Positions 1 through 49,606 of a DNA stretch of 52,474 nt are shown piece by piece. Numbering within the stretch: position 1 is the first letter of the stretch; every line of letters begins with the position of its first letter. The stretch spans positions 1-52,474 of the IMG/VR virus record IMGVR_UViG_3300037493_004638; one strand, 5' to 3'. Origin of the DNA: a virus. The notes under the pieces were generated by a model, which saw only the letters and a list, made by a program, of their open reading frames with translations, was not told where the DNA came from and searched no databases. A program made the position numbers and the translations under genes.

Positions 1-1391
1 GTCGTCGGGACTGTTGACGTTGCTCCCGGCTCGTACACACCGATGCAGAGATAGTTGGTGGCTCCGTCGACGAACGTCCATGCGCGCACGTTGCGCCAGA
101 CGCTCGAAAACGGAATACCGGGGAAGACGACTTGGCTGGTGTCGATGTTCAGCGTCGCGAACGCGGTCGTCGTCAGCGTGCCTGCGGTGCCCTGCGTCGT
201 GAGGTCGAGGTAGGTGTTGGCAACTGCGTTGGCGTAGGACGTGGCGATGCGCGACGTCGTGGCGGTGATGCGGATCGTCCAGTAGTCGGTCGCGAGTGCC
301 AGCGGCGCAGGCAGCGTGCTCGACGTCGTGAAGCGCACACGCGACAAGGTAGGAATGTCACCCGACGTCGTGATCCAGTCGTTCACTGTGTCGACACCTG
401 CGATCATCGCGGTCGTGTACGCTGTCGAGACGGCGTTGATCGTGGGCGTGCTGGCGAGGTTGCTTACCGTCCCGATCCAGACGTTGAGGACCGATGCCGA
501 CATGGTCGGCTGGTAGAAGTAAATCTCAGAGCCGGGGGTCGCGACAATGGCGTTCGACGGGAAGCAAAGCTGGTAGTTGGCCGCGTTGTCGATGGCGGGT
601 GGGGTCGTGGCAGGCAGCCAGTTGGTGCTCAGTGTCGTCAGCGTGCCCGTGTTGCGAGCGCACATGTATGCTGGCACCGAACTCTGCAAGTCGGTGAGGG
701 TAGCTGGAAAATCGGGAGTGCCGACGACCAAGACCCAGTCAGAGCCCATGTATGGCATCGTGGGGTAGCGCGTAATCTGCCCGACGGTCGTCAGGGTTCC
801 GGCCTCCGTCAGCACACCAAAACTACCTGCTACTTGCCCGCTCAGGCCGTTCCCCGTTGCCAAGAACGCGGAACTCGCCTGCATCGTGAACCAACGAGAG
901 TTCTGCGAAGGCAGAAATACCCAACCAGCCAGCGCGTTGTTGCCGTTGGTGAACATCGCAGTGCCAGTGACTGACCCCGGCGTCAGGACTCGAAAGCTGT
1001 TGTCGAAGGTGGACAACGTGTTCAAGGCGTTGTTGTTACCTGCCACGCCGTAGTAGCGGGCCTGCGATGCCGAGTAGACGAAGCTGGTGCTCTCGATGTC
1101 TTGGCCGCACGAAATCTTCGTCGAGTCGAACTGGCCTCCTGCGCCGAAAGCAGGATAGATACCGGCGCTGGCCCTCACATAGGTTCGTGGCAGACAAAGC
1201 TGACCTACTGCCTGTATCCCAACACCGGAAGCGGTAGAAGCGCCCGCAGCGGCCCAAAACGTCGGTCCCTGCGAGAACGCAATCGGCGCGAGGTTCGTCG
1301 GCGTGAACTCGACGCCCTCGATGAACAGTTTTCCGCCCACCTCGATCACGTTGTTGGCGGAACTGGAACGGATGTCGCAAAGGTAAGGCAT
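1..1391 (-). CDS. Putative tail fibre or receptor-binding protein, 3' end cut off
   Basis: The reading frame starts with ATG at 1391 (MPYLCDIRSSSANN) and stays open for 463 codons to the left edge, so its C-terminus lies outside the window. The ATG overlaps the TAA stop of the preceding fibre gene (TAATG), so the two are translationally coupled. Composition is rich in Ala, Gly, Ser, Thr and Asn, with few charged residues and no membrane segment, as in beta-rich phage adhesins. I recognise no specific domain. Its place as the last gene of the fibre locus, after three repeat-rich fibre genes, suggests a distal fibre or receptor-binding subunit (inference). It could equally be another decorative virion protein. 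Confidence 0.75.
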   Translation of the reverse strand, partial: MPYLCDIRSSSANNVIEVGGKLFIEGVEFTPTNLAPIAFSQGPTFWAAAGASTASGVGIQAVGQLCLPRTYVRASAGIYPAFGAGGQFDSTKISCGQDIESTSFVYSASQARYYGVAGNNNALNTLSTFDNSFRVLTPGSVTGTAMFTNGNNALAGWVFLPSQNSRWFTMQASSAFLATGNGLSGQVAGSFGVLTEAGTLTTVGQITRYPTMPYMGSDWVLVVGTPDFPATLTDLQSSVPAYMCARNTGTLTTLSTNWLPATTPPAIDNAANYQLCFPSNAIVATPGSEIYFYQPTMSASVLNVWIGTVSNLASTPTINAVSTAYTTAMIAGVDTVNDWITTSGDIPTLSRVRFTTSSTLPAPLALATDYWTIRITATTSRIATSYANAVANTYLDLTTQGTAGTLTTTAFATLNIDTSQVVFPGIPFSSVWRNVRAWTFVDGATNYLCIGVYEPGATSTVPT

Positions 1392-4000
1392 TAGACGTAC
1401 TCCACGAAGACGACGGCGTTGGAGCCGCCGTTTGCAGTGATGAGGGAAATCGTCAAGTAGTCCGTCGTCGCGACGGCCACCGAGGGCACGGTGACGTCGA
1501 GAGAGCGGTAGTCGCCGATTGCGACGGACACTGGAGACGGCAGGATGCTCGCCCCGTTACGCAGCACGTCGAACTCTGTGACGCCCGCCGAGTCCTCGCC
1601 GAGCGAGGCCCACGCCCTGATGACCGTGACGCTGTCTGGCGGATACCAGCGGGCGTTGGCGGCGAGGGGCGTGGCGAGGGCGCCGACGAAGTTTCCGGTG
1701 AGGGTCTTCGCTGCACCTGCCGCAGCAGCACCCACGATCGTTGTGCCGACGCGCTTGAGGTACTGACCGATGGCGATGCTGCCGATCGTGAGGTCAGTGC
1801 TGTCGGTGCGCAGGGCGTGGTTGTGATCGCTGCGGGCGAACGTCGACGCGCCCCCCTCGGCGTTGCCTGCGCCGATGCCCGTCGTAGGGGCTGCGGTGCC
1901 GAGGGCGTCCGGTCCTGTCGGTGCGTGGCGTGCGGCGTGAGCGGCGACGGTGACGCCGTTGTAGGTGCCGCCCGTGACGTTGCCCGAACCGTCGACGGTG
2001 ACGGTCGAGTTTTTGATCACCTTGCCGGTGATGCCATCGTAGAGCGCAATCGCGCTGCTTGTTGCTGATGCAGGGCCGTTGACGTCTCCGCCACCTGCTA
2101 CTGGCGCCCACGCTGTGCCTGACCAGCGCAGCACGTCGTTGGTCGCAGGTGCGGTGCTCGCGACGTTGCGGTTCTGGATCTTCGCGACCGTGGCCCCGGT
2201 GATGGGTCCGGTGAGATCCCCGCCGACGGTGACAGAGGCGTTACCAATCGTGCCTGTGAGCTGCCCACCGACCGCGTTGGCGCTGACGTTGATCGACTGG
2301 CTGCTGGCCGAGGTGATGCGGCCTTTGTTGTCGACCGCTATCTGCGGGATGGTCGTCGTTGAGCCGTAGGTACTCGCCGAGACCCCGCTCGTTGCCAGTC
2401 CGAGGGTGACGTTTCCGCCTGCACCACCATCGGTCTGCGTGAGTTCACCCACGGCAGGGGTCAGCACGCGCTCCCCAGTGAGGGTCGGGTTCGTCGAGAG
2501 GACGACATAGGTGGCGTCAACCGGGGCCGCACTGCCAACGGACGATGGCGTCCACGCCGTGCCGTTGTACGAGAGCACCTGCCCAGTCGTCGGAGCGACT
2601 GCTGCGACCGCCGTGCCGCGCAAGGCCACGACGCTCGATGCCGTGACGTTTCCGGTGACGTCACCTGAGAGGCCGACGGTGACGTTGCCGATGGTGCCCG
2701 ACACCTGCCCGCCCACAGTGTGCCCGCTGACGTCGAGTGCCGTCGTCGACACGAGCGTCGTGCGCCCGTACTGGTCAACGGTGACGACGGGGATCGCGGT
2801 CGAGCTGCCGAAGGTGCCCGTGGGGTCTGGGACGAGCGGCGTCAACGCCGCGATGGTCGCTGGCGCCCAATCAGCGCCGCCCCACTGGAGTACCTGCCCG
2901 CTCGTAGGCGCGGTACTGGCGACAGAGTTTCCCTGCAGGGCCTCGACGGTGGCGTTGCCGACGGTGCCCGAGAGGTCGCCGCCGACGCTGTTGCCGCTGA
3001 CGTCGAGGCTCGCGGTCGTGACGCCCGTGACATAGCCCTTGTTGTTGACGATGACGACCGGGATCGCCGTCGAAGAGCCGTAGCTACCCTGCGGGTCAGG
3101 CGAAAGCGGCGGCGTCGTGACGGCCTGTGGCTCCCATCGAGTTGCGGCAGCGTTCCATATGAGCGTGAACCCGTCTGACGGCGCTCCGTTGAAGACGTTG
3201 CGGCCCTGCAATTTCTGCACGGTGCTGGCGCCAACAGTGCCCGTGACGTCGCCGCCCATCGCCTGCCCGCTGGCATCGAGCGTGGTCGTCGACACAGAGG
3301 TCGTGCGCCCGTAGCTGTCAACGGTGACAGTCGGTACCTGCGTTGCCGACCCGTAGGTACCTGTCGGGTCAGGAACAAGCGGCGTGAGCGACGCGAGTGT
3401 CGTCGGGGACCATGCGGTCCCGCTCCATACAAGCGCCTGACCTGCTGCTGGAGCAGTGGCCGCGACAGAGCGGTTGCGAATCGCGTTGACGGTCGCCAAC
3501 GTGATTGGACCCGTGAGGTCACCCCCTACAGTGACCGATGCGTTACCGACGGTGCCTGTCAGTTGTCCGCCGACGGCGTTGCCGCTGACGTTGATCGAAG
3601 TAGTCGAGGCGAGCGTGAGCTGGCCCTTGGTATTGACCGTGATGACGGGGATGGCGGTGCTGCCGCCGTAGCTGCCTGAGACGACGCCCGTGGAATCCAG
3701 TTTTGCCGACGTAACCGCGCCGTCGTCGATGGCTGATGTACCAACGGCGTTGGGCGCGATGGTTGGATTCGGGTACGTCCCGGTGAGGGAGCCTCCCATT
3801 GCCGTCGCGAGACTGATAGTCGGCGTTGCTCCTCCTGAAGAGTGCAGCGGTTCCGACACCACGATGGCAGTGACGGCTTCGGATCCAACGATGCTGTTGA
3901 GAGACCGGGCTAGAAATTTACCATCGGCAATTGTGCCGATATCAAGCAGCTGTGTGCCTGTGACGTTGATTATCTTCTTAGCAGCAGGTTGGAATGTCAT
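1391..4000 (-). CDS. Repetitive tail fibre protein (869 aa)
   Basis: The first 40 residues (MTFQPAAKKI then a LARSLNSIVG-type end) resemble the start of the neighbouring fibre at 4070-6961 and may be a shared attachment motif. The body is built from repeats: GGDLTG/GGQLTG turns, and five copies of a module of the form AP-x2-GQ-x-L-x-W-x-GTAW-x-P near residues 180, 280, 370, 475 and 620. [15 protein letters not shown] block near residue 75 recurs in the protein at 7053-7895. A histidine-containing SDHNHAL motif lies near residue 745; HxH motifs of this kind bind metal in some phage fibres. The last 120 residues are non-repetitive and may be the tip. It lies downstream of a strong terminator, so it may have its own promoter. 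Confidence 0.85.
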   Translation of the reverse strand: MTFQPAAKKIINVTGTQLLDIGTIADGKFLARSLNSIVGSEAVTAIVVSEPLHSSGGATPTISLATAMGGSLTGTYPNPTIAPNAVGTSAIDDGAVTSAKLDSTGVVSGSYGGSTAIPVITVNTKGQLTLASTTSINVSGNAVGGQLTGTVGNASVTVGGDLTGPITLATVNAIRNRSVAATAPAAGQALVWSGTAWSPTTLASLTPLVPDPTGTYGSATQVPTVTVDSYGRTTSVSTTTLDASGQAMGGDVTGTVGASTVQKLQGRNVFNGAPSDGFTLIWNAAATRWEPQAVTTPPLSPDPQGSYGSSTAIPVVIVNNKGYVTGVTTASLDVSGNSVGGDLSGTVGNATVEALQGNSVASTAPTSGQVLQWGGADWAPATIAALTPLVPDPTGTFGSSTAIPVVTVDQYGRTTLVSTTALDVSGHTVGGQVSGTIGNVTVGLSGDVTGNVTASSVVALRGTAVAAVAPTTGQVLSYNGTAWTPSSVGSAAPVDATYVVLSTNPTLTGERVLTPAVGELTQTDGGAGGNVTLGLATSGVSASTYGSTTTIPQIAVDNKGRITSASSQSINVSANAVGGQLTGTIGNASVTVGGDLTGPITGATVAKIQNRNVASTAPATNDVLRWSGTAWAPVAGGGDVNGPASATSSAIALYDGITGKVIKNSTVTVDGSGNVTGGTYNGVTVAAHAARHAPTGPDALGTAAPTTGIGAGNAEGGASTFARSDHNHALRTDSTDLTIGSIAIGQYLKRVGTTIVGAAAAGAAKTLTGNFVGALATPLAANARWYPPDSVTVIRAWASLGEDSAGVTEFDVLRNGASILPSPVSVAIGDYRSLDVTVPSVAVATTDYLTISLITANGGSNAVVFVEYV

Positions 4001-4010
4001 CGGTATTCCA

Positions 4011-4050
4011 TGAAGTAAAACAAGGGTGGCCTCCCAGCAGCCACCCTTGT
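4011..4050 (-). terminator. Rho-independent terminator after the coiled-coil fibre gene
   Basis: Perfect 11-bp inverted repeat, ACAAGGGTGGC at 4020-4030 and GCCACCCTTGT at 4040-4050, with a 9-nt loop. Read on the minus strand it is followed by TTTTACTTCA (4020-4011). It lies in the 69-bp gap just downstream of the stop of the 963-aa fibre gene, in the correct orientation. Confidence 0.9.
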
Positions 4051-4069
4051 CTGCTTGCTATCAGTTTTC

Positions 4070-6961
4070 TTAGACGACGAACCAGTTGGACCCGTCGCTG
4101 ATCACGGTCACCGAGTCGAACTGCACGAGCAGCGCGTAGCTGGCCGAGCCGTCGATGGTCTGACCCGACGCGGCTGCGACGGAGCAGGCGTTCGCCGAGT
4201 CGTCGCTGCGCTTGACGAGGATCTTGCGACCCCGGTTCATCGCAGCCTGCGGCAAGGTGATCACCACAGACGAAGCGGCGGCGCTGGCAATCACGACGTC
4301 AGCCGCGAGGCTGACCGACGCGCTGGCCGACGCGATCTGCACGGGCGAGAGGCGGCTGGAGATCATGAGCGCGCTTTCCTGACGGAAAGACGACGTCACG
4401 AAACCAGTCGCTTCGACAACGAAGGACACGGTGTTGACCGTCGTCGCCGAACTGCCGCAGGAGACGGTGTAGACCGCTTCCGAGGCCAGCAGCGAACCAA
4501 GCTGGTTGCCGGGGACCGCCGACGTCGTCATCGGGATACGACGAGCAGACGGAACCTCAGGATGCGCGCCGGAGTCGGTGCCGAAGTAGAAGAAGTACTT
4601 CAGACCAGCCGTGAGCACGGTGGACGGGTTGGTGACCAACACGCGACGGCTTTTCGCGAAGCCGGGGAGGGCGTCGCCAGTGCCAGTCGGCATCGTGTAG
4701 ATGCTGAAGAACGGGCGCTGGGCGCTCGCCACAGAATCCATCGTCACAACCGCGTAGCCGCTCAGACCACCCAGCGTCGCCGGGGTACGGGTACCGTCAA
4801 ACAGGTACCAGTTGATCTTGCTGCTCGCGACGGCGTTTTTGAAGTGCCAGCCCGAACGACCCGAAGGATCGATCGAGCCGGGTTCGCCATCGGCATAGAC
4901 GCCGGGGGTATTCTCATACACCGGCATCGTGTCGACGTAGGTTTCGAGAGACAGAGCCCGAGCCGCGAGGGCAAGGTAGCCCGCTTCACGCGATGCTGTC
5001 TCTGATGCAAGGCTCAACGTCAGCGCAGCGTCGCCATCGGCGCGAGCGACGGCCTCGTCGTCGATACGGACGCTGAGAGCGACATCGGCCACGAGCCGAT
5101 CATTGACCTCACCGTCGATGCGACCGCCGAGCGCGGTATCAGCAGAAGCGCGGGTACCCGCTTCGCTGGTGATGCGCGTATCGAGGGCGCTATCCGCAGA
5201 GGTGCGAGCAGAAGCCTCTGAGGTCACGCGGGTGTCGAGGGCGCTGTCCGCAGCGACGCGGGCAGTTTCCTCGGACGCGATGCTGGACTGCAACACGCCG
5301 TCGGCAGACGAACGAGCCGTGGCCTCGTTGTCGATGGCGGTTTGCAGAGCAGCATCGGCAGACGAACGAGCCGATGTTTCGCCGTCTACGCGCACGCCGA
5401 GAGCGGTATCGGCAGTCGAACGAGCCAATGTTTCGGATTCGACCGCAGTTTGCAGCGCGGAGTCACCAGCGATGCGCGCAGCGACTTCGGTGTCGATGCG
5501 AACACCAAGGGCAACATCCGCAGCCAGACGAGCAGCGGTTTCCGCAACGTCAGCGGCCAGACGAGCGGCGGTTTCAACAGCAAGATCCGCCGAGGCCGAG
5601 GAGGCCAAAGACGAGATCGCGCCGTTGATGTTCCCGTCAGCAGTCTGGAACGCAGCAACAATCTCCGTCAGCGAGTCGAGCGCAGTCACGTCGAGGTTGC
5701 TCAGGACGTTGTCGATCCGAACGCCCAAGGCGTCGTCGGCAGCCAGACGGGCAGCGGCTTCACCACTGACCGCAGACACCCGAAGAGCAGCTTCGGCATT
5801 GACCGCAGCTTGCAGAGCGATGTCGGCAGAAGCGCGGGTAGCGGCTTCCGAGTCGACCGCAGCTTGCAGATCCACATCGCCAGCGACACGCAGGGCAATC
5901 TCACCATCGACGCGCAGGCCGAGAGCGACATCGCCAGCAGCGCGATCCACGACTTCAGCGGCGATGGCCGAGTTGATCGTGGTATCGGCAGTTTCGCGGG
6001 CACTGACTTCGTCGTCGATGCGGACACCGAGGGCCAAGTCAGCTGCGCCACGAGCAGAAGCCTCAGTGTCGATCCGACCACCAAGGGCAACGTCACCCGA
6101 GGCGCGCGAGGCGGACTCGGTGTCGATGCGGGTGTTGATCGAGACGTCAGCAGCCTGACGGTCGCTGACTTCGGTCGAGACCCGACCGTCGAGGGCAATG
6201 TCAGCAGCCGAACGGGTGGTAGCTTCGGCGGTCACGGCAGCGGCACGAGCCGAGGCTTCACCGTCGATACGCACACCGAGAGCGGTATCGGCACCGGCGC
6301 GCGAGGTCGCTTCGCTGGTGAGGTTGCTCTGAAGCAGAGAATCAGCCTCGCCGCGAGCCGTGGCTTCTTCACTGAGGGAGAGGCTCAGGGCGTCGTCAGC
6401 CGCTTCGCGGGCATTCATTTCCGCGAGGATGTCGTTCGCGCGTGAGGCAGCTTCCGCCATGATCGCAGCGACGCGGTCGCTGATCTCTTGGTTCAGGTCG
6501 CTGCGCAGGTCGCTGTCGCCTTGAGTACGGGCCAGAATCTCAGCGGTCAGGTCGGTGCTGGCGGCGCTCGACAAGGCCGTGATGGCTCCCTGAAGATTGC
6601 TGTCGGCGTTCTGGAAAGCCAGCACCAGCTCGGCCAGCGAGTTGAGCGCCGTGCCGTCGGTGTTGCTCAACAGGTTGTTGATCTGGCTCTGGAGGCCAGC
6701 GATGTCGCCGCTGATGATCGCCGAAACGGCGTCATCGACGTACTTCTTGGTCGACGCCATGCTGTCGGACGTCGGGGTGACGAGCGAGAGCTTGGACTGG
6801 GTGATCACACCGTCGGACAGCTGGCTGTTGCCAATCTGCGCGGCCTTGATCACGTTCCCCATACGTTGAAGGACAAGACCTTCAGGCAGGGTGGAGATGT
6901 TGAGAACTTCGGTGGCGTTGTCGGCTGCCTTCAGCTTCGCAACGTATGGCTTGAACGTCAT
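4070..6961 (-). CDS. Long coiled-coil tail fibre protein (963 aa)
   Basis: The N-terminus (MTFKPYVAKLKAAD) resembles that of the downstream fibre. Residues about 85-640 are a coiled-coil rod made of an 18-residue repeat of the form SAR-x2-AD-x2-LGVRIDDEV, with more than 20 copies. Inside the rod, a 46-residue segment with NTDGTALNSLAELVLAFQ is repeated about 350 residues later as NLDVTALDSLTEIVAAFQ. The last ~320 residues form a non-repetitive globular region ending in SDGSNWFVV, a terminus also seen (SGDWFII) in the protein at 7053-7895. I infer a trimeric long fibre shaft with a C-terminal head. The ATG at 6961 has AGGAG upstream, and a strong terminator follows the gene. Confidence 0.88.
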   Translation of the reverse strand: MTFKPYVAKLKAADNATEVLNISTLPEGLVLQRMGNVIKAAQIGNSQLSDGVITQSKLSLVTPTSDSMASTKKYVDDAVSAIISGDIAGLQSQINNLLSNTDGTALNSLAELVLAFQNADSNLQGAITALSSAASTDLTAEILARTQGDSDLRSDLNQEISDRVAAIMAEAASRANDILAEMNAREAADDALSLSLSEEATARGEADSLLQSNLTSEATSRAGADTALGVRIDGEASARAAAVTAEATTRSAADIALDGRVSTEVSDRQAADVSINTRIDTESASRASGDVALGGRIDTEASARGAADLALGVRIDDEVSARETADTTINSAIAAEVVDRAAGDVALGLRVDGEIALRVAGDVDLQAAVDSEAATRASADIALQAAVNAEAALRVSAVSGEAAARLAADDALGVRIDNVLSNLDVTALDSLTEIVAAFQTADGNINGAISSLASSASADLAVETAARLAADVAETAARLAADVALGVRIDTEVAARIAGDSALQTAVESETLARSTADTALGVRVDGETSARSSADAALQTAIDNEATARSSADGVLQSSIASEETARVAADSALDTRVTSEASARTSADSALDTRITSEAGTRASADTALGGRIDGEVNDRLVADVALSVRIDDEAVARADGDAALTLSLASETASREAGYLALAARALSLETYVDTMPVYENTPGVYADGEPGSIDPSGRSGWHFKNAVASSKINWYLFDGTRTPATLGGLSGYAVVTMDSVASAQRPFFSIYTMPTGTGDALPGFAKSRRVLVTNPSTVLTAGLKYFFYFGTDSGAHPEVPSARRIPMTTSAVPGNQLGSLLASEAVYTVSCGSSATTVNTVSFVVEATGFVTSSFRQESALMISSRLSPVQIASASASVSLAADVVIASAAASSVVITLPQAAMNRGRKILVKRSDDSANACSVAAASGQTIDGSASYALLVQFDSVTVISDGSNWFVV

Positions 6962-7052
6962 CTCGTACTCCTAGACTGATTGTTGAATGAAAGGGCTGAC
7001 CGTTGACCAACAGGCTTTGATTTTGCAGCGCGGGATTGGGCATCTGACCTAC

Positions 7053-7895
7053 TCAGATAATGAACCAGTCCCCGCTGTCCTTCTGAACAGTGGCGCTTTC
7101 CCACTGAGTAATGAGTTTTATTGAAACTTTCGCATCAACTGTTCCCACTGAAGGCAATAAAACCACGCTGTTGAGTGATATATCGACTTTCTTTATGTTG
7201 AAGATCGATCCGATGCTGCCGTCCAAAGTGACTGTTGTTTCCCCAGCCGAGGCGTCCACAAGAATTGTAAAATCGTTTGGAAGAGTAGTCGTGTCTGCAG
7301 CGACGCTACGAATAGCGTTTGAACCCCCGCCACTGACCGCGACAGTGCTCGCCGCTGTGACCCGTCCATCGACGTCGATGGTGACGACCGGAATCTGCGT
7401 AGCGGAACCATATGGTCCTGCCACAACGCCAGTGGACTGAAGCTGTGTCGGGCCTACTGCGTTGGCAGCGATGGTCGGGTTTGGGTACGTCCCTGCAAGG
7501 GATCCTCCCGCTGGTCCGGTAGGAGAGCCACCGCCTCCACCGCCAAGTGGCAACCAAGCCGTCCCGTCCCAGACGTACATGACGAGCGGGGAGCGGGTGA
7601 CACGGGTGTCGCCAAGCTGGTTGTCAACGGACGGAAGGTCAGACGCCTGATAGACCGTCGGACGCCAGTTCTGGCCCAGCGGCCACGCCGGGACCAGCTC
7701 GTTGAGGTCGCCGGGTGCCGGAATTATCTCGACGGTCAGTTTTCCAGCCGCCAACATTTGTTGAAGGCCCATCATGTTCCCCATCTCGACAGGGGAACGG
7801 GACACGGAAATTGGTCGTCCAGACCGCAGCGTCACGTAGAGATCCCTGAGCCAGAGATCCTCCGTCGATATGTTCGTGATGCGGAGCTGAGACAT
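7053..7895 (-). CDS. Short fibre/adaptor protein with a shared N-terminal module
   Basis: 280 aa. Residues 1-60 (ITNIS, then VSRSPVEM, then [17 protein letters not shown]) align clearly with the N-terminus of the virion protein at 46034-46669. The middle carries a GGGGGG linker at about 118-123, a [15 protein letters not shown]-type block ([14 protein letters not shown]) shared with the 869-aa fibre, and a [12 protein letters not shown] segment of the same repeat family. The C-terminal ~85 residues form a beta-rich domain ending in SGDWFII, like the end of the 963-aa fibre. The mosaic suggests an adaptor or short fibre joining a common anchor to a receptor-binding tip (inference). It is the first gene of the leftward fibre locus and faces the divergent plus-strand island. 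Confidence 0.8.
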
Positions 7896-13325: not shown

Positions 13326-14033
13326 TCATGTTTGTGGCACGTCGATCGTCACCATCCCGGCAGGGACTTCGGACGGAGGCATCTCCTCCTCGCTGAGAGA
13401 GTCCATGATGTGCATCGTCCATGAGCGGATGTCGGCCATCCCTTGCGGGGGAGCTTCGGCGAGCGTCTTGATGAACCCTGCCTCCCCTTCGGTGATGAGC
13501 CTGATGGCCCACAGGACCGCGACAGGGATCGGGGCGATGAGGGGAGGGTACCCGCGCTGCTTCGAGAGCCGGAGGGCCTCCTCGATCGCCTCAAGGTCGA
13601 ACGCCTGCGTGTTTATGCGAGCAACAGTCTTCTCTCCGGCCTCAGACGAACAGTTCGAGGGCTGGGAGACCGCGAAGTAGGTGCGGCACGGCGTGGGGCG
13701 CACGGCGTAGATGGAGCAGGACCGTTGCCCATCAAGGAAGACACACGGAGTGTTCGTGTTGAAGTGCGCAGTCCGGTCGTACTGGAGCTTCTGGGTCGCG
13801 TTGTAGAGGTTCCGCGAGATTGCGCCGAGGGCCTGAGGCGGAAGCTGCAGCAGGGTTTCCGCGATGGCGATGGCTTCGGGGAGGCTGATGAAGATCATCA
13901 GGTTGCAGCAGTGCGAGCACCCCTTGCGACAGGTGGTGCCGTTCTCAGTTGCCAACTTCTGGATCGCCGGTTCCTGCTCCTCGTAGAGCTTCAGCATCCG
14001 GTGGCCCAACCTCTTCGCGTCCTTGTCCTGCAT
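13326..14033 (-). CDS. YkgJ-family cysteine-cluster protein
   Basis: 235 aa from ATG 14033, chosen because AGGAG lies seven bases upstream; a longer open frame extends to 14216 without support. The N-terminal cluster has C35, C39, C42 and C43 (CRKGCSHCC), followed by C97, C106, C116 and C128 (CVFLDGQRSCSIYAVRPTPC). This is the diagnostic layout of the UPF0153/YkgJ family (CxxxCxxCC, then CxxL...C.IY..RP..C), annotated as zinc- or iron-chelating. The exact reaction is unknown. Such genes occur sporadically in phages. It overlaps the upstream methyltransferase gene by 89 bp in a different frame, so the two are expressed together. Confidence 0.85.
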   Translation of the reverse strand: MQDKDAKRLGHRMLKLYEEQEPAIQKLATENGTTCRKGCSHCCNLMIFISLPEAIAIAETLLQLPPQALGAISRNLYNATQKLQYDRTAHFNTNTPCVFLDGQRSCSIYAVRPTPCRTYFAVSQPSNCSSEAGEKTVARINTQAFDLEAIEEALRLSKQRGYPPLIAPIPVAVLWAIRLITEGEAGFIKTLAEAPPQGMADIRSWTMHIMDSLSEEEMPPSEVPAGMVTIDVPQT

Positions 14034-14700
14034 CTGTGTCTCCTGTCGTTGCCGCTTTCGGCGTCCGTGGTTTGCGAGGTCGCTTCTCTGTCGACTTCGG
14101 ATTTCGCACTTCACTCGGGGTGGAGGCAAGCACTTCCACTCGTCCTGACGCACGCTTTCCGAGGTGGTACCCGTGCCACACCATCCACGCGTAGGACGTG
14201 CTGTCCGTCTGCCCATCTGGCGTGAAGGAGGGCCTGTCGGGGATGACGTAGACGTCTGGGCAGTCGCCGGTGAGCCACAAGCTGCGCTCGGCGCCAGACA
14301 GGTAGTTCAAGCGAAGCAGGAAGCAGACGCTGGTCGCATGCTGACGAGCGACGTGCAGGAATTCCGTCGCCAGCGAGAACGGTGGATTGGAGATGATGAC
14401 GTCGAAGGGAGTCGTCGGAAGGGGCGTCGTGCAGAAGTTCCCGATGAGAGGCGCGCGACCCGTCAGGAGATGCAGGGCCGAGGCGTGTTCGGCGTTCACC
14501 TCAGATGCCGTCCAGCGGACCTTGGAGCCGTAGGCCGGATGCGCGCTGGTGGCCTCAATGAGAGCGCCCGCTCCAGCTCCCGCATCAAGCCAATTCCCCA
14601 CCGGGAGGACTTGCTTGTCGAGAAGCCGGGCGAGCACCCAAGGCGGGGTCGGGTAGGACTCGTGGGGCGATCGGGCCCCGCCACGCTTCGTGCTGCTCAT
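13945..14700 (-). CDS. DNA N6-adenine methyltransferase
   Basis: 251 aa. Motif I, DAGAGAGALIEA, at residues 39-50 binds S-adenosylmethionine. The catalytic motif IV NPPF at 105-108 defines an amino-methyltransferase, most likely N6-adenine. YPTPPWVLARLLD at 16-28 is the usual N-terminal FxTP-like motif X. Residues after ~190 form a basic, low-complexity Arg/Thr/Pro tail that is encoded in the stretch overlapping the YkgJ-type gene. No restriction endonuclease is adjacent, so it is an orphan methyltransferase. Protection of phage DNA from host restriction is the usual explanation (inference). Its target sequence cannot be read from the protein. Confidence 0.87.
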   Translation of the reverse strand: MSSTKRGGARSPHESYPTPPWVLARLLDKQVLPVGNWLDAGAGAGALIEATSAHPAYGSKVRWTASEVNAEHASALHLLTGRAPLIGNFCTTPLPTTPFDVIISNPPFSLATEFLHVARQHATSVCFLLRLNYLSGAERSLWLTGDCPDVYVIPDRPSFTPDGQTDSTSYAWMVWHGYHLGKRASGRVEVLASTPSEVRNPKSTEKRPRKPRTPKAATTGDTDAGQGREEVGPPDAEALRGAGTGDPEVGN

Positions 14701-16975: not shown

Positions 16976-17383
16976 TCAATCGCCCGGCTGTTCCACGAAC
17001 GGAGCAACGGTCTCGTCGCCTGCGATCCCAATGATCTCGTCCGCTGCGATCCAACCCACGAGGCTCTTGTCCTTCAGCTTGTAGGTCCAGCCGAAAGGAA
17101 GACGGAAGAACATGATGCGGTCCCCCTCCTTGAGGGCCGTCTTCGCAAGGGGCCCGATCGAGAGCACTGTGCCGGTGACGAGCACCTGCGAGCCGAGCCG
17201 CTGCCCATAAGCAGCAGCATGGTCGGGCGGGAGGTAGATGCCGCTCGCGGTCCGGTCAGGAAGCACGTCGGTACGCAGGAAAACTCGGGATCCGATGGCG
17301 ACCACGCGGTGGCCGACCTCGTCCCACGTCGCTTTGATGAATTCGGCAGTCGTCTGGGTCGGGGCAGGCATCGTCTCAGTCAT
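16976..17383 (-). CDS. GroES-like co-chaperonin (T4 gp31-type analogue)
   Basis: 135 aa from ATG 17383 (MTETMPAPTQ), which has GGAG seven to eight bases upstream. The order of motifs follows Cpn10: VVAIGSRVFLRTD (strand 1), a mobile-loop-like TASGIYLPPDH at about 44-54 whose IYL replaces the GroEL-binding IVL tripeptide of GroES, then GTVLSIGP and LKEGDRIMFFR, and the closing ADEIIGIAGDE. In T4 the gp31 co-chaperonin replaces host GroES so that GroEL can fold the large capsid protein; a similar role is the natural inference here. It is longer than GroES (about 97 aa), with ~24 extra N-terminal residues and a ~10-residue tail. Confidence 0.85.
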   Translation of the reverse strand: MTETMPAPTQTTAEFIKATWDEVGHRVVAIGSRVFLRTDVLPDRTASGIYLPPDHAAAYGQRLGSQVLVTGTVLSIGPLAKTALKEGDRIMFFRLPFGWTYKLKDKSLVGWIAADEIIGIAGDETVAPFVEQPGD

Positions 17384-17391
17384 GTGTCTCC

Positions 17392-17724
17392 TCAAAGGGC
17401 CCGAGGGCCGTCCGTTTTCGTACCAGTAGCCCATCTATTGTCAGATCGGTAGGCATCTGCGCGAGCCGTCAGCGCGTCCATCGCAGCCTCGATCGTGATC
17501 AGCAGCTCCTTGTTCCCCGGAAGTCCGGCGAGAAGGCGCTTCTGAGCCACGAGCAGGTCTGCCTGCGAATTGTAGAAGGCTACCGGGGTCGTCAGGTGCC
17601 TCATGACAGAGGACGCCGCGTCGAAGACCGCGAAGGCGTTCCCTTTCATGGCAACCGAGTCGACACCGTCTGCAAGCACCTTTGTGGGAGGTGTCGGGGT
17701 GCGTTTGAGGGCTTTCTTAGCCAT
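17392..17724 (-). CDS. Small helical protein of unknown function (110 aa)
   Basis: ATG at 17724 with GGAGG close upstream. The product has a basic N-terminus (MAKKALKRTPTPP), then mostly helices (NAFAVFDAASSVMRHL, FYNSQADLLVAQKRLLAGLP, ELLITIEAAMDALTARADAY). It lies immediately upstream of the GroES-like gene, 8 bp from its start, and is probably co-translated with it. No family recognised. It could be a small assembly factor, but only its place next to the co-chaperonin suggests this. Confidence 0.62.
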   Translation of the reverse strand: MAKKALKRTPTPPTKVLADGVDSVAMKGNAFAVFDAASSVMRHLTTPVAFYNSQADLLVAQKRLLAGLPGNKELLITIEAAMDALTARADAYRSDNRWATGTKTDGPRAL

Positions 17725-19067: not shown

Positions 19068-19253
19068 CTAGCGGTCATCCGACAGGTAGTCGGCCTTCGC
19101 ACAGTCAACCGAGTCGACCGATTTTCTCAAGTCGAGGTAGATGACGGCGACCTTGGGAGGCGTCGAGTCAAACTCGTAGATGATGTCGACGGGCGACGTC
19201 GACGACACCTCAGGTTGGGTGTACGAGGCCGAGAGGGTCGAGGAGGACTTCAT
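19068..19253 (-). CDS. Small protein of unknown function (61 aa)
   Basis: The ATG at 19253 (MKSSSTLSASYTQPEV) overlaps the stop of the Nudix gene (ATGA), which decides the start; the longer open frame to 19385 lies inside the Nudix gene. The sequence (PVDIIYEFDSTPPKVAVIYL) suggests a small beta-rich unit. It ends in a TAG just before a CCATATGG-centred hairpin. No family recognised. Confidence 0.55.
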   Translation of the reverse strand: MKSSSTLSASYTQPEVSSTSPVDIIYEFDSTPPKVAVIYLDLRKSVDSVDCAKADYLSDDR

Positions 19254-19954
19254 AGCCAACCCTTGTCGTTGCCCGATGCGAGGCGCTTCCGCTTGACCTT
19301 CTCGACAAGGTCCATCGCCTTCGTGAGGATCTTGATGTCGCGGCTGTTCCCGCCCTTGGCGAACTTGTGAATGGCTTCGGTCCACGTCGCGAGCAGAACC
19401 TTGTCGGTCTCCTCGTCGTGGCGCCCAAGGTCGCGGGTGGCCACCATGAGGTAGTAGTGCGTGTGCGACATCGAGCCTTCAGCGAGGCCGAGGTAGCCGC
19501 CCGGGATGATGCGTGCGACGATGCCGATCTCTTCTTCGACCTCGCGAAGCGCGGCTTGCTCCTGCGTTTCACCCTTGTCGATGCGGCCCTTGGCGAAGGC
19601 CCACGGTCCGAAGTTGCCGGATGGCTTTCGGATGTAGACGTGGTCGAGGTCGTCGACGCCTCCGAGGACAACGCCTCCTGCCGAGATCCACTTCTCTGGC
19701 TTCTTGTACTCGGGCTTCTCAGGCTTCAGTCCAGAAGACCCGTCCGGTCCGACGCCCTTGGATGAGTCATCGCTCTTGGACGACTTGGAACTGGACCAGC
19801 TCGACTTGGAGGACTTCTCTGCAGGGACGCCGAACCACGACTTCGCGGGCTTGTCGGACGTCGGTTTGTCGCCGCCCGAAGCCTTGATGACCTTGCCGTC
19901 GGGCCCGACCTTGAAGATCGCCTCCAGCTGTTCCAGATCTTCCTTGAAAGTCAT
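19250..19954 (-). CDS. Nudix hydrolase
   Basis: 234 aa from the ATG at 19954, which overlaps the stop of the inserted HNH-like gene (TGATG) and has GAGG seven bases upstream. The Nudix box GX5EX7REUXEEXGU is complete at residues 123-145: G123, E129, R137, E138, E141, E142 and G144. The domain spans about 87-220. Residues 25-85 are a Ser/Lys/Pro-rich linker, unusually long for a Nudix enzyme, preceded by a short MTFKEDLEQLEAIFK helix. Phage Nudix enzymes hydrolyse nucleotide sugars, (d)NTPs or NAD derivatives; the substrate is not readable here. The Shine-Dalgarno lies within the 16-bp duplicated sequence. Confidence 0.88.
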   Translation of the reverse strand: MTFKEDLEQLEAIFKVGPDGKVIKASGGDKPTSDKPAKSWFGVPAEKSSKSSWSSSKSSKSDDSSKGVGPDGSSGLKPEKPEYKKPEKWISAGGVVLGGVDDLDHVYIRKPSGNFGPWAFAKGRIDKGETQEQAALREVEEEIGIVARIIPGGYLGLAEGSMSHTHYYLMVATRDLGRHDEETDKVLLATWTEAIHKFAKGGNSRDIKILTKAMDLVEKVKRKRLASGNDKGWL

Positions 19955-19969
19955 CACCAAGCCTCGATT
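19954..19969. repeat. Direct repeat, downstream copy, flanking the HNH-like insertion
   Basis: TCACCAAGCCTCGATT, identical to 20854-20869 and exactly 900 bp away. On the minus strand this copy provides the last four codons and stop (IEAW, TGA) of the HNH-like gene, and the GAGG Shine-Dalgarno for the Nudix gene whose ATG overlaps its end. Confidence 0.85.
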
Positions 19970-20847
19970 TCCAAGCGACCTGCCTCGGTGAAGATGGCCG
20001 CTTCGTTGCTCCACCCAGACCGAAGCCTACCGCTGATCGTTTTTGCAGCCACGCCGCTGAACGTACTCCAATCCTTCAGACAACGTAACTCCCCGCGAGC
20101 CTCCAGAAAACGGACTTTGCGGGTGTTCCTCCGTTGTTCCGCGCGCGTCGCCCAACGCACGTTCCCCGGCGCGTAGTTCCCGTTGACGTCAATACGGTCC
20201 AACGAAAACTCAGGCCCCGGTTTCGGGCCTACGCTCTGCAGGAAGTTTCGGAAGCCGCTCGGACCTCGCCACTCTTCAGCCACGACGATGCCCCGCCCGC
20301 CGTAGTAGTGGAAGGCAGGCTCAGACTTACAGTAGCAGCGGCTCTGCATGCCATACCAAGTGTTGTGTTCAGCAGACCTTCGTGTCGTCCCGCGTGCCGG
20401 GTCTGTTTCACTGCACGCTCGGGCGGCGGTCGGCTTCCAGACGGCGTCTGCGGCGGTCCATCCTTTGCTCAAGCGAGCGTAGATGGTCCCCGCCGCCACA
20501 CCACTCAAGTGGGACCACGCACCGACAGACCTCGTCTGGCCGGAGACAGTTAGGCGCAAGGAGCTTCGCTTGTTTAGCGCCTGCTCCGCTCGAAGCACCC
20601 AACGAACATTCGCGGACTCGTAGTGACCGTTCGGGTCGATGCGATCCAGCGAGTAGGCAGGCGACGGGCGTCGACCCACGGCCACCACGAATCGTGTGAG
20701 TCCCCCTCTACCGACCCACTCCGCGCAAACCCGGATTCCACGTCCCCCGTACCAAGGGTAGTTCGACGCGCGAGGATTCTGGCAGCGGGTGATCACCCCA
20801 CTGAGCACCTTCCGCTCGTGGTGAAAAGTAGTAGTTATTTCAAGCAC
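19954..20847 (-). CDS. Tandemly duplicated degenerate-HNH protein, likely homing-type mobile gene
   Basis: 297 aa, GTG start at 20847 shortly after GAGGG. The protein is a head-to-tail duplication. Each half has a WYGGRGI/YYGGRGI motif (about residues 33 and 177), then SLDRIDPNGHYESANVRW or SLDRIDVNGNYAPGNVRW, an HNH-like core in which His is replaced by Arg, and then an HTH-like repeat (SGVAAGTIYARLSKGWTA; SGVAAKTISGRLRSGWSN). Such repeats bind DNA in phage homing endonucleases. The gene ends in IEAW, identical to the end of the upstream gene, because a 16-bp sequence is repeated exactly 900 bp apart on both sides. The activity itself is inferred. Confidence 0.8.
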   Translation of the reverse strand: MLEITTTFHHERKVLSGVITRCQNPRASNYPWYGGRGIRVCAEWVGRGGLTRFVVAVGRRPSPAYSLDRIDPNGHYESANVRWVLRAEQALNKRSSLRLTVSGQTRSVGAWSHLSGVAAGTIYARLSKGWTAADAVWKPTAARACSETDPARGTTRRSAEHNTWYGMQSRCYCKSEPAFHYYGGRGIVVAEEWRGPSGFRNFLQSVGPKPGPEFSLDRIDVNGNYAPGNVRWATRAEQRRNTRKVRFLEARGELRCLKDWSTFSGVAAKTISGRLRSGWSNEAAIFTEAGRLEIEAW

Positions 20848-46753: not shown

Positions 46754-49606
46754 TCAGGAATTGAGGGACTTCTGCTGGAAGCGCATTCGCACGAACTCAG
46801 CAGGCTTGTTCGGGGCTGCACCGATGTCGATGATGACTTGACCCGCTTCGATGGTGGCCGGGGTATTGTTCGAGGAGTCGCAGACGACGAAGAACGCCTG
46901 TTGAGGGTTCACGCCCGCAAAGAAGCCTTGCGAGAACAGGTTCCCCATGTACGAGTCCAATTGCGCTTTGATGCGCGACCAGAGGCCGGGGCCATTGTTC
47001 TCGAAGACGATCCACCACGTAGCGTTGAAGACCGACTTCTCCAAGAACATGAACAGCCGACGAGCGTTGATGTAGCGCCAGTCGGGTACGTTCGAGATGG
47101 TGCGGACGCCCCACACCGCGAGCCCAGTCTGCGTCGACGAGATCAACGGGTTGACCTTGTTCGGGTAGAGGAGGTCACGGTCTTCCTGCGTCGGAGACGT
47201 TTCCAGACCCACGAGGTAGGTCAAGGCGCCGTCCACGGTGCCGCCGGGGCTCTTCCCGACGTTCCGGTTGTTGTCCGTGCGGGCGTAGACACCCGCGATG
47301 TGCCCAAGGGCAGGCATCAGCGTGGGCCGGTTGTTCATCAGGGGATTGGAAACCCGGACCCACGGCCAGTAGAGCGCCGCGTAGTCCGAGGACCGTGCGA
47401 GGCTGAACCGGAACCAATCGACCGCCCTCTGGGCCGTCAGCCCGGCAGGCGGGGTGAGGATGATGAAGCGGTCACCACCCTGCGGCATCAGCGCGCGGCC
47501 AGCGGCGTAGTCGAGCTGATCCTGCGAGATGATCACGTTCCCGGCGAAGTCGACGATCGTGATCTGCAGCAGCTCCTCGACCTTGTTGAAGGCGTACATG
47601 CCCTTGTAGGTCGCAGCCAGCGCCGTGGCGTCGGTGAACTGCGACCGACCCCAGTTCGTCGAGTCGAACGTGCCTTCCTCACCCGGCAGGTAGTTCTTCG
47701 AGCTGTCGCCGAGGATCTCGGAGTGAACCGTCTCGGCCACCTTGTCGGCAAAGGTCGCGACGACGAGCGTGGCTCCCTTGATGTTGTTCAGGGTGGTGAA
47801 CTCGACCGCGCCGGTCTCGTAGTCGACGGTGTTGACCGCCGAAGTCAGGGCTGACCCCACCAGATTGCCGTCACCGTCGTCCGTGATGACGCGCGCCGTG
47901 CCGCCCGTGTCGGTGTAGGCGATCGACACCGTCCGAGGCGCGATGGGTCCACCGAGCGAGGTCGAGAAGACTCGGTTGGGAGCCAGCGCGTTGCCGCCGC
48001 CGAGGGACAACGTGTGCGGGACCGCATTCAGCTGGTAGGGCGGGATGTCACCGGCAGGCTCGTTGATCCGGATGAAATCGGACAACTCGTTCACGACGTC
48101 GGCAAAGTAGACAGGCGAGGTTGGGTCGTTGAAGACCATCTCCTCGTACTGCTCGACGACGTTGAAGGACGACGTCGGCGTATTGCGCAGCAGCACCAGC
48201 ATGTCGAAGCGGGTGTAGACGCCGGTCGAGGCATCAAAGAAGTTCGGCGATCCAGCGATCTGGACCTGCAGGTTGTTTCCCCACGTCCCAACAGAGATCG
48301 GGTCAACCGACCACGCGTTGAGCGTGTAGTCCGAGAGGAGAGGGCTCTTGTTGCAGGGGATGAAGCCCGTGAGGTCGAGCGCGAACGCACCTGAGGAGTA
48401 GTCCACGGACCCGGGGGTCGCGACATCGCCGAGCCACAGACCTGCTGCCGAGGCGACGATCGGGGCGACTGAGAAGCCAGCAGCGGCGACGCTCTCCGAG
48501 AGCACAGGGGTCGGGGCGACGGACGAGTTCGGCACCAGTTTGATCTGGGTCAACGATCCAGCCACGGCTTCGGCCTTGAGCAGAAGCAGGGGGGCGTTGT
48601 TGATGGCAGCGATCGTCGCAGCCTGAATCGTTGCCGTGGAGTCCGCGAGGGTGAACGGGATGGGGAGACCCGTCGAGGCGCCGTTCGAGTCGTACTCGAA
48701 CGTGACCGGCGGGTTGACGCCATCATCGATAATGAAAGCGTCGGTGTCGATGAGGGAGGCGCCTGCAACAATCGAGATGGCTGCGAAGCCGTCGACTGCC
48801 GTGCGGGTCGCAGTCGTCGGAGTGAAGTCCGCCGTGACGAGGGCACCGTTGTCTGCGAGCACCGGAACGAACGTCCCGAAAGTGCGGAGCGAGAAGCGCC
48901 CCGAGCGCGAGTCGAGGATCACGATCGCGCCGTCAGTGCCGTCACCGACCGAGGCTTGGACGATCGAACCCGTCCCTGCAGGAATCAAGATGGCCTGCGC
49001 ACCGGGGCCCGCGAGCGTGAAGTTGATGGTGACGGTACCGCGCACGACGGCGTCGAGGTTGTTCACCAGCGTGGGGAGGCCAGCGGGATTGATGCGACCA
49101 TCGTAGCTCGCCTGAGCCGTCACCAGCGAGAGGTTGGCGGTGCTGTCGCGATTGCGCGTGTTCTGAGCGACCACAGGGGCGCCTGCCGAGCGCCAGTTGA
49201 CGTTGATCGAGCCGGGTACGAGGGGAGAGGCCCCCGCAGCCGTCGGGAACGAACCGGTGAACGCCGTTGTGACGCCGTCGCCCGTTCCGATGCTGTCGTC
49301 GGTGAGGTCTGACTGGATCTTCGCATTGGCAGCCACCGCGTTCGCGGGAGGAACACGCACGATGAAGGCACGACGGCCACCATTGGCGAAGAACGCCGCG
49401 AGCGAGAGAGGCATGAGGCTCTGCGTGACCAGCCCACCGAAGATGCGGGAGTACTGCTCGAAGCTCTGCACGAGCACAGCCTCGTTGGCCGGACCACGCT
49501 CTGCGTATCCCACGGTGCCGAGGTTCGAGGTCGTCACACCGGGAATGATCTGCGCCGCCGTCGGGACTTCTTCGACGAAAACACCGGGCGAGAGAATGTC
49601 AGCCAT
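46754..49606 (-). CDS. Tail sheath protein (950 aa)
   Basis: N-terminus DILSPGVFVEEVPTAAQIIP, then GTVGYAERGPANEAVLVQSF and SLAAFFANGGRRAFIVRVPP, are classic sheath motifs. The C-terminal domain has RAVDWFRFSLARSSDYAALY, NARRLFMFLEKSVFNATWWI, WSRIKAQLDSYMGNLFSQGF and the DIGAAPNKPAEFVRMRFQQK end. Its 950 residues exceed T4 gp18 (659); the extra ~300 lie in the middle (about 95-450), where GDGTDGAIVILDSRSGRFSL and beta-rich segments form inserted surface domains. It contracts around the tube. Confidence 0.95.
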   Translation of the reverse strand: MADILSPGVFVEEVPTAAQIIPGVTTSNLGTVGYAERGPANEAVLVQSFEQYSRIFGGLVTQSLMPLSLAAFFANGGRRAFIVRVPPANAVAANAKIQSDLTDDSIGTGDGVTTAFTGSFPTAAGASPLVPGSINVNWRSAGAPVVAQNTRNRDSTANLSLVTAQASYDGRINPAGLPTLVNNLDAVVRGTVTINFTLAGPGAQAILIPAGTGSIVQASVGDGTDGAIVILDSRSGRFSLRTFGTFVPVLADNGALVTADFTPTTATRTAVDGFAAISIVAGASLIDTDAFIIDDGVNPPVTFEYDSNGASTGLPIPFTLADSTATIQAATIAAINNAPLLLLKAEAVAGSLTQIKLVPNSSVAPTPVLSESVAAAGFSVAPIVASAAGLWLGDVATPGSVDYSSGAFALDLTGFIPCNKSPLLSDYTLNAWSVDPISVGTWGNNLQVQIAGSPNFFDASTGVYTRFDMLVLLRNTPTSSFNVVEQYEEMVFNDPTSPVYFADVVNELSDFIRINEPAGDIPPYQLNAVPHTLSLGGGNALAPNRVFSTSLGGPIAPRTVSIAYTDTGGTARVITDDGDGNLVGSALTSAVNTVDYETGAVEFTTLNNIKGATLVVATFADKVAETVHSEILGDSSKNYLPGEEGTFDSTNWGRSQFTDATALAATYKGMYAFNKVEELLQITIVDFAGNVIISQDQLDYAAGRALMPQGGDRFIILTPPAGLTAQRAVDWFRFSLARSSDYAALYWPWVRVSNPLMNNRPTLMPALGHIAGVYARTDNNRNVGKSPGGTVDGALTYLVGLETSPTQEDRDLLYPNKVNPLISSTQTGLAVWGVRTISNVPDWRYINARRLFMFLEKSVFNATWWIVFENNGPGLWSRIKAQLDSYMGNLFSQGFFAGVNPQQAFFVVCDSSNNTPATIEAGQVIIDIGAAPNKPAEFVRMRFQQKSLNS

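Follow-up and report, generated by a model that had tools for sequence, protein, structure and literature searches.

A gene on the minus strand of a contractile-tailed phage record appears to encode a divergent member of the Cpn10 family, and this protein probably acts as a co-chaperonin of the gp31 type, capping the GroEL of its host so that a large phage protein can fold. The window, meaning the whole stretch of DNA that I analysed, comes from IMG/VR, where it forms a virus record 52,474 bases long, classed as linear and probably a fragment. Judged from its sequence, the protein (P0002) is a Cpn10 that carries a hydrophobic GroEL-binding tripeptide and that, in the better-scoring alignment register, has lost the stretch corresponding to the roof hairpin and lengthened its mobile loop. 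The loss of the roof together with the long loop arm would be stronger evidence for a gp31-like role than the tripeptide, IYL, which had first drawn attention to the gene. The features discussed below are collected in Table 1.

The first-pass annotation had placed a Cpn10/GroES-like gene at 16976-17383, and these coordinates prove exact; to them can be added the strand, with the ATG at 17383 and the stop at 16976-16978 on the minus strand, the plus strand across the same bases being a different and unrelated open frame. A listed ORF of 152 aa that starts at 17434 is probably too long at its 5' end, because a GAGGAG stretch precedes the ATG at 17383 both in the window and in a homologous gene, L002, found on contig G001. 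The two proteins are 93% identical in alignment and have the IYL tripeptide and the N-terminus in common. Across the whole gene the pair differ by 27 synonymous and 10 replacement codons (dN 0.041, dS 0.39; NG86), which shows that the gene is real and under purifying selection. This includes the N-terminal extension, which was noticed at the outset as some 24 extra residues and is indeed conserved in L002, with 2 synonymous and 1 replacement codons and one codon missing. A C-terminal tail of about 15 residues, which had escaped the annotation, is the less conserved end (4 synonymous and 4 replacement codons).

Table 1. Positions of the Cpn10-family gene and its parts in the window, in order from the 5' end of the gene.
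Feature	Position	Strand	Evidence and remarks
Likely ribosome-binding site, GAGGAG	17388..17393	minus	A few bases 5' of the ATG; conserved in L002
Cpn10-family (GroES-like) gene, P0002	16976..17383	minus	135 aa + stop; PF00166 above cut-off; PHROG 3188; dN/dS values
N-terminal extension ahead of the Cpn10 domain, residues 1-24	17312..17383	minus	Multiple alignment; conserved in L002
Mobile loop with long distal arm, residues 43-69	17177..17257	minus	Anchor counts
IYL tripeptide of the mobile loop, residues 49-51	17231..17239	minus	Block test; anchor counts
Strand TGTVLSIG, residues 70-77 (counterpart of GroES RGEVLAVG)	17153..17176	minus	13.1 bits; alternative register GSQVLVTG 1.7 bits
Roof stub PLAKTA at the place of the GroES roof hairpin, residues 78-83	17135..17152	minus	Anchor counts
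LKEGDRIMFF, residues 84-93 (counterpart of GroES VKVGDIVIFN)	17105..17134	minus	14.7 bits, 0/1000 shuffles
C-terminal tail, residues 121-135 (about 15 residues)	16979..17023	minus	Two alignments (MAFFT, 11 and 34 sequences)

Although no standard GroES, the protein belongs to the Cpn10 family by its sequence matches. With 25 bits (E 1.9e-5) against Pfam PF00166 it passes the curated cut-off of 21.1, and it matches PHROG 3188, 'co-chaperonin GroES', at E 6.2e-5. The NCBIfam GroES models all score far under their cut-offs of 96-136, the best of them reaching 18.3 bits where 120 is required, and solved GroES chains are matched by phmmer only at E 0.024 or worse. I then scored the blocks of a Cpn10 profile on the protein and on 1000 shuffles of it, the profile being an alignment of 91 roofed Cpn10s (72 bacterial, 12 viral and 7 others, namely six from phages and that of E. 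coli). The mobile-loop block, DRTASGIYLP, is the strongest in the protein, with 20.1 bits and no shuffle to equal it, and it contains the glycine and the hydrophobic tripeptide (SGIYL) by which a Cpn10 is recognised; the strand TGTVLSIG was equalled by 1 shuffle in 1000 and LKEGDRIMFF by none. The first-strand, roof and C-terminal blocks do not rise above shuffles, 190, 701 and 759 of 1000 scoring as high. The first-pass observation of a Cpn10-family protein is confirmed.

The tripeptide does read IYL where IVL was expected, but as a sign of re-tuned binding to GroEL it is not supported, as the middle position varies in the sample and the key leucine is kept. Aromatic middle residues are found in other members of the family (IFL in three viral rows, of which two have the same sequence; LFI; LYI in Achromobacter phage Motura; IFI in one bacterial sequence), so that IYL, unusual in detail, would not be the telling feature; the gp31 tripeptides include LII, IVI, FLL and others. 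The leucine, L51, is equivalent to Leu27 of GroES, the third residue of the tripeptide, whose replacement in L27A is reported to abolish the interaction with GroEL (excerpt of PMC3514286).

The lengths on either side of the strand are more distinctive. From strand to GD, a measure of the roof, P0002 and L002 both have 9 residues in the better-scoring register, the shortest in the sample, compared with 16-17 in all 89 roofed Cpn10s measured: 17 in E. coli GroES, in 70 of the 72 bacterial sequences (two were unmeasured) and in 7/7 of the others, and 16-17 in 12/12 viral ones. The bacterial sample is a narrow one, since its titles are almost all of beta-proteobacteria, and its 72 different sequences come from 80 loci. 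The same spacing is 10 in 16/16 gp31 proteins under the first anchor rule; a second rule, which goes to the final GD, GQ or GE within range, gives 18 instead of 10 in 7 of these 16. On the other side, the distal arm of the mobile loop, measured between the tripeptide and the V of the following strand, is longer in P0002 and L002 than in any other sequence of the sample, at 21 residues in this register as against 12 in 70/72 bacterial Cpn10s (again two unmeasured), 11-17 in the 12 viral and 7 other proteins and 13-14 in the 16 gp31s. The mobile loop is therefore longer than that of GroES, as in gp31, but its extra residues are placed otherwise.

These resemblances raise the question of origin: is P0002 a direct descendant of the gp31 of a T4-type phage, or a GroES that lost its roof separately? 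Descent from gp31 is compatible with the role proposed above, and I consider it a real possibility that falls somewhat short of an even chance. Of the 107 sequences compared, the one closest to P0002 is Acinetobacter phage Melin gp31 (z 13.8), hhalign favours a gp31 pair (E 3.3e-5, probability 72.5) over a GroES pair (E 0.0056, probability 6.5), and trees unite P0002 with gp31 at 100/98, at 99/96 once the N-terminus is removed and at 98/94 when all the gp31 included is of the Melin type. Against this, the grouping is gone when T4-type gp31 only is included, and in the trees, to which 5 of the 72 bacterial sequences were offered, long branches meet (a treekit warning). Furthermore, the HMMER profile scores point the opposite way, with 16.5 bits to the roofed-Cpn10 profile and 2.9 to the gp31 profile, and the median z is 0.5 over 14 gp31 loci (5 of 19 having been left out of the comparisons) against 8.1 over the 72 bacterial sequences. 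T4 gp31 itself barely exceeds shuffles (z 1.7, 22/300 as high).

In the other history, a myovirus not close to T4 would have started from an ordinary GroES and, with the other side of the mobile loop lengthened, made of it a lid with long arms and no roof, so that the enlarged GroEL cage would have been invented a second time and independently; this I hold to be doubtful. The titles and abstract openings of the literature searched contain no roofless Cpn10 beyond the gp31 group, which speaks weakly for novelty. That a phage should carry a co-chaperonin is in itself common: in a collection of phages, 90 records match E. coli GroES and 1355 match T4 gp31. P0002 has no match in that collection at E 0.01, and raising the limit to E 10 brings in five records, of which four, at E 2, are Acinetobacter gp31-type genes. 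When viral contigs were scanned with the one protein, a single relative came up, the contig of L002, and two motif scans returned 2 and 4 stretches, of which only those on the same contig encode a Cpn10. A scan for high-GC codons of TA[SG]GI gave at least 120 stretches, and hmmsearch recognised no new Cpn10 among those listed; a search of genome contigs for relatives gave none.

The main doubt about the loop lengths is the register. An unlikely alternative is that P0002 is an ordinary, divergent GroES with its roof in place: residues 64-71 (GSQVLVTG) would then be the strand, TVLSIGPLA the roof, and the loops would be near normal in length, with a distal arm of 15 residues. The best paths are indeed nearly gapless when P0002 is compared with the roofed-Cpn10 profile in HMMER, where the strand register is shifted and no roof is lost, with two GroES proteins in hhalign and with solved GroES in phmmer, and by eye the length from GI to GD is 41 residues as compared with 40 in E. 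coli GroES. Nevertheless, the gapped, roofless register is the likelier of the two, because GSQVLVTG scores only 1.7 bits as the strand whereas TGTVLSIG scores 13.1. Supporting this, the MAFFT alignments of 11 and of 34 sequences both put the gap in the roof, and nowhere in the protein does the roof block score better than in shuffled sequence.

Two AlphaFold2 models have mean pLDDT values below 50 (46.4 from a 2-sequence input and 46.9 from a 44-sequence input), and structure comparison of these low-pLDDT models gave top matches of Z 3.3 and Z 2.2 to unrelated proteins, with no Cpn10 chain among the matches listed; these matches are given no weight. From the 80 bacterial loci the larger input took 31, and from the 12 viral loci 11; gp31 was omitted from it because the 34-sequence alignment misaligns gp31 after the strand.

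What kind of phage carries this gene? PHROG matches to 30 window proteins include a sheath, a tube, a baseplate hub, a baseplate wedge, tail-fibre-like genes and HNH endonucleases, from which the phage is taken to have a contractile tail, and the baseplate wedge near the GroES-like gene is T4-like. As pointers to the host, the DnaB has mixed matches, and the best bits of the sheath go to a Streptomyces phage. Contig G001 (109,966 bases) is colinear with window positions 1-30302 and reaches 77 kb further to the left; among 18 of its proteins scanned are UvsX-like, DnaB-like, primase and helicase genes and one short virion-protein match. PHROG scans of these 18 and of the 30 window proteins recognised no capsid gene, the only head match in the window being a weak one to scaffolding (E 0.023). 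Neither record contains a tRNA, and no Cpn60 (GroEL) was found in either of the two, both of which may be fragments.

Several other features of the region were observed along the way. An HNH endonuclease gene at 19954-20847 on the minus strand (PHROG 3377, E 6.6e-80) lies within some 890 bases that G001, colinear elsewhere, lacks, a presence and absence as expected for a mobile, homing-type endonuclease. An additional 1.1 kb or so is present in G001 (96926-98050) at the point matching window position ~17771, immediately upstream of the gene next to the GroES-like one. The minus strand also encodes a NUDIX-domain protein (19250-20014) and a protein with a CxxCxxCC metal-chelating domain (13326-14216), and at 1391-7895 it has adjacent genes that share PHROG 36881 and 37034 and whose DNA matches G001 at several offsets, which suggests that they carry repeated domains. 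The tail sheath gene (46754-49606, minus strand) is 950 aa long and matches sheath families best towards its C-terminus, the top family covering roughly residues 659-944; the sheath gene of Streptomyces phage GiJojo has 1941 bases, or about 646 aa, and the remainder of the present protein may be a large added domain.

In this setting, I suggest that seven copies of P0002 would form a ring taking the place of host GroES on host GroEL, since the available sequence of the phage shows no GroEL that it could bring along. With the long arms and open dome, the cage would be taller or more open and so accommodate one large phage protein; by analogy with T4 this client would most likely be the major capsid protein, the first-pass annotation having proposed a large capsid or sheath protein. 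That the protein has kept the Cpn10 fold for some task other than serving GroEL, for example in the virion, would fit the extensions at both ends and the uncharacterised genes that adjoin it, but is very unlikely given that the GroEL-contact tripeptide and its leucine are retained in the strongest block of the protein.

The interest of a co-chaperonin capping host GroEL in this manner lies in what T4 gp31 has come to represent, as it is the textbook example of a phage remodelling the GroEL cage. GroES is reported to be unable to substitute for gp31 in the folding of gp23, and the same source, as excerpted, holds that cage size is perhaps not the whole explanation of gp31 specificity, to which subtler features may contribute (PMC3012670). 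A distant co-chaperonin with the same kinds of loop change, arranged differently, would be a natural test of cage size against such subtler features. Should P0002 enable a large capsid protein to fold when GroES does not, the requirement common to both phage lids would be a taller cage with an open roof, and if it was invented independently, cage enlargement would be a repeatable answer to the problem of large phage proteins.

Among known systems, bacterial GroES (PF00166) shares with P0002 a domain match above the curated cut-off and the mobile-loop, strand and GD motifs, but in the better-scoring register the roof stretch of P0002 is 8 residues shorter and its distal arm 9 longer; the NCBIfam GroES models are a further point of difference, P0002 lying far below every listed cut-off. 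The GroES proteins of Erwinia phage Hallingskeid and of Motura are also phage-borne Cpn10s, the latter with a tyrosine in its tripeptide too, but both differ in having kept 17 residues in the roof stretch, with 12 in the distal arm. CocO of phage RB49 may be likened to P0002 by description alone, as a phage co-chaperonin said to stand in for GroES (excerpt of PMC3012670). The right comparison, as the first-pass annotation had supposed, is T4 gp31, although the short roof stretch and long mobile-loop arm on which the comparison now rests were not part of its case. In the portion of PMC6318259 available, gp31 is described as having flexible loops of 22 residues, compared with 16, no roof loops and a cage about 8% larger; there the volume of the GroEL-GroES cage is put at 194,000 cubic angstroms and the size of gp23 at about 56 kDa. 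Like gp31 and its homologues (PDB 1g31, 2cgt), including that of Melin, P0002 has a mobile loop exceeding that of GroES and, in the better-scoring register, would lack the roof stretch (9 residues to their 10); it occurs, with no GroEL found alongside, in a contractile-tailed phage with a T4-like baseplate wedge. Unlike them, it has a 24-residue N-terminal extension and a C-terminal tail, and its additional loop residues follow the tripeptide where those of gp31 precede it. With T4 gp31 itself it has almost no pairwise similarity.
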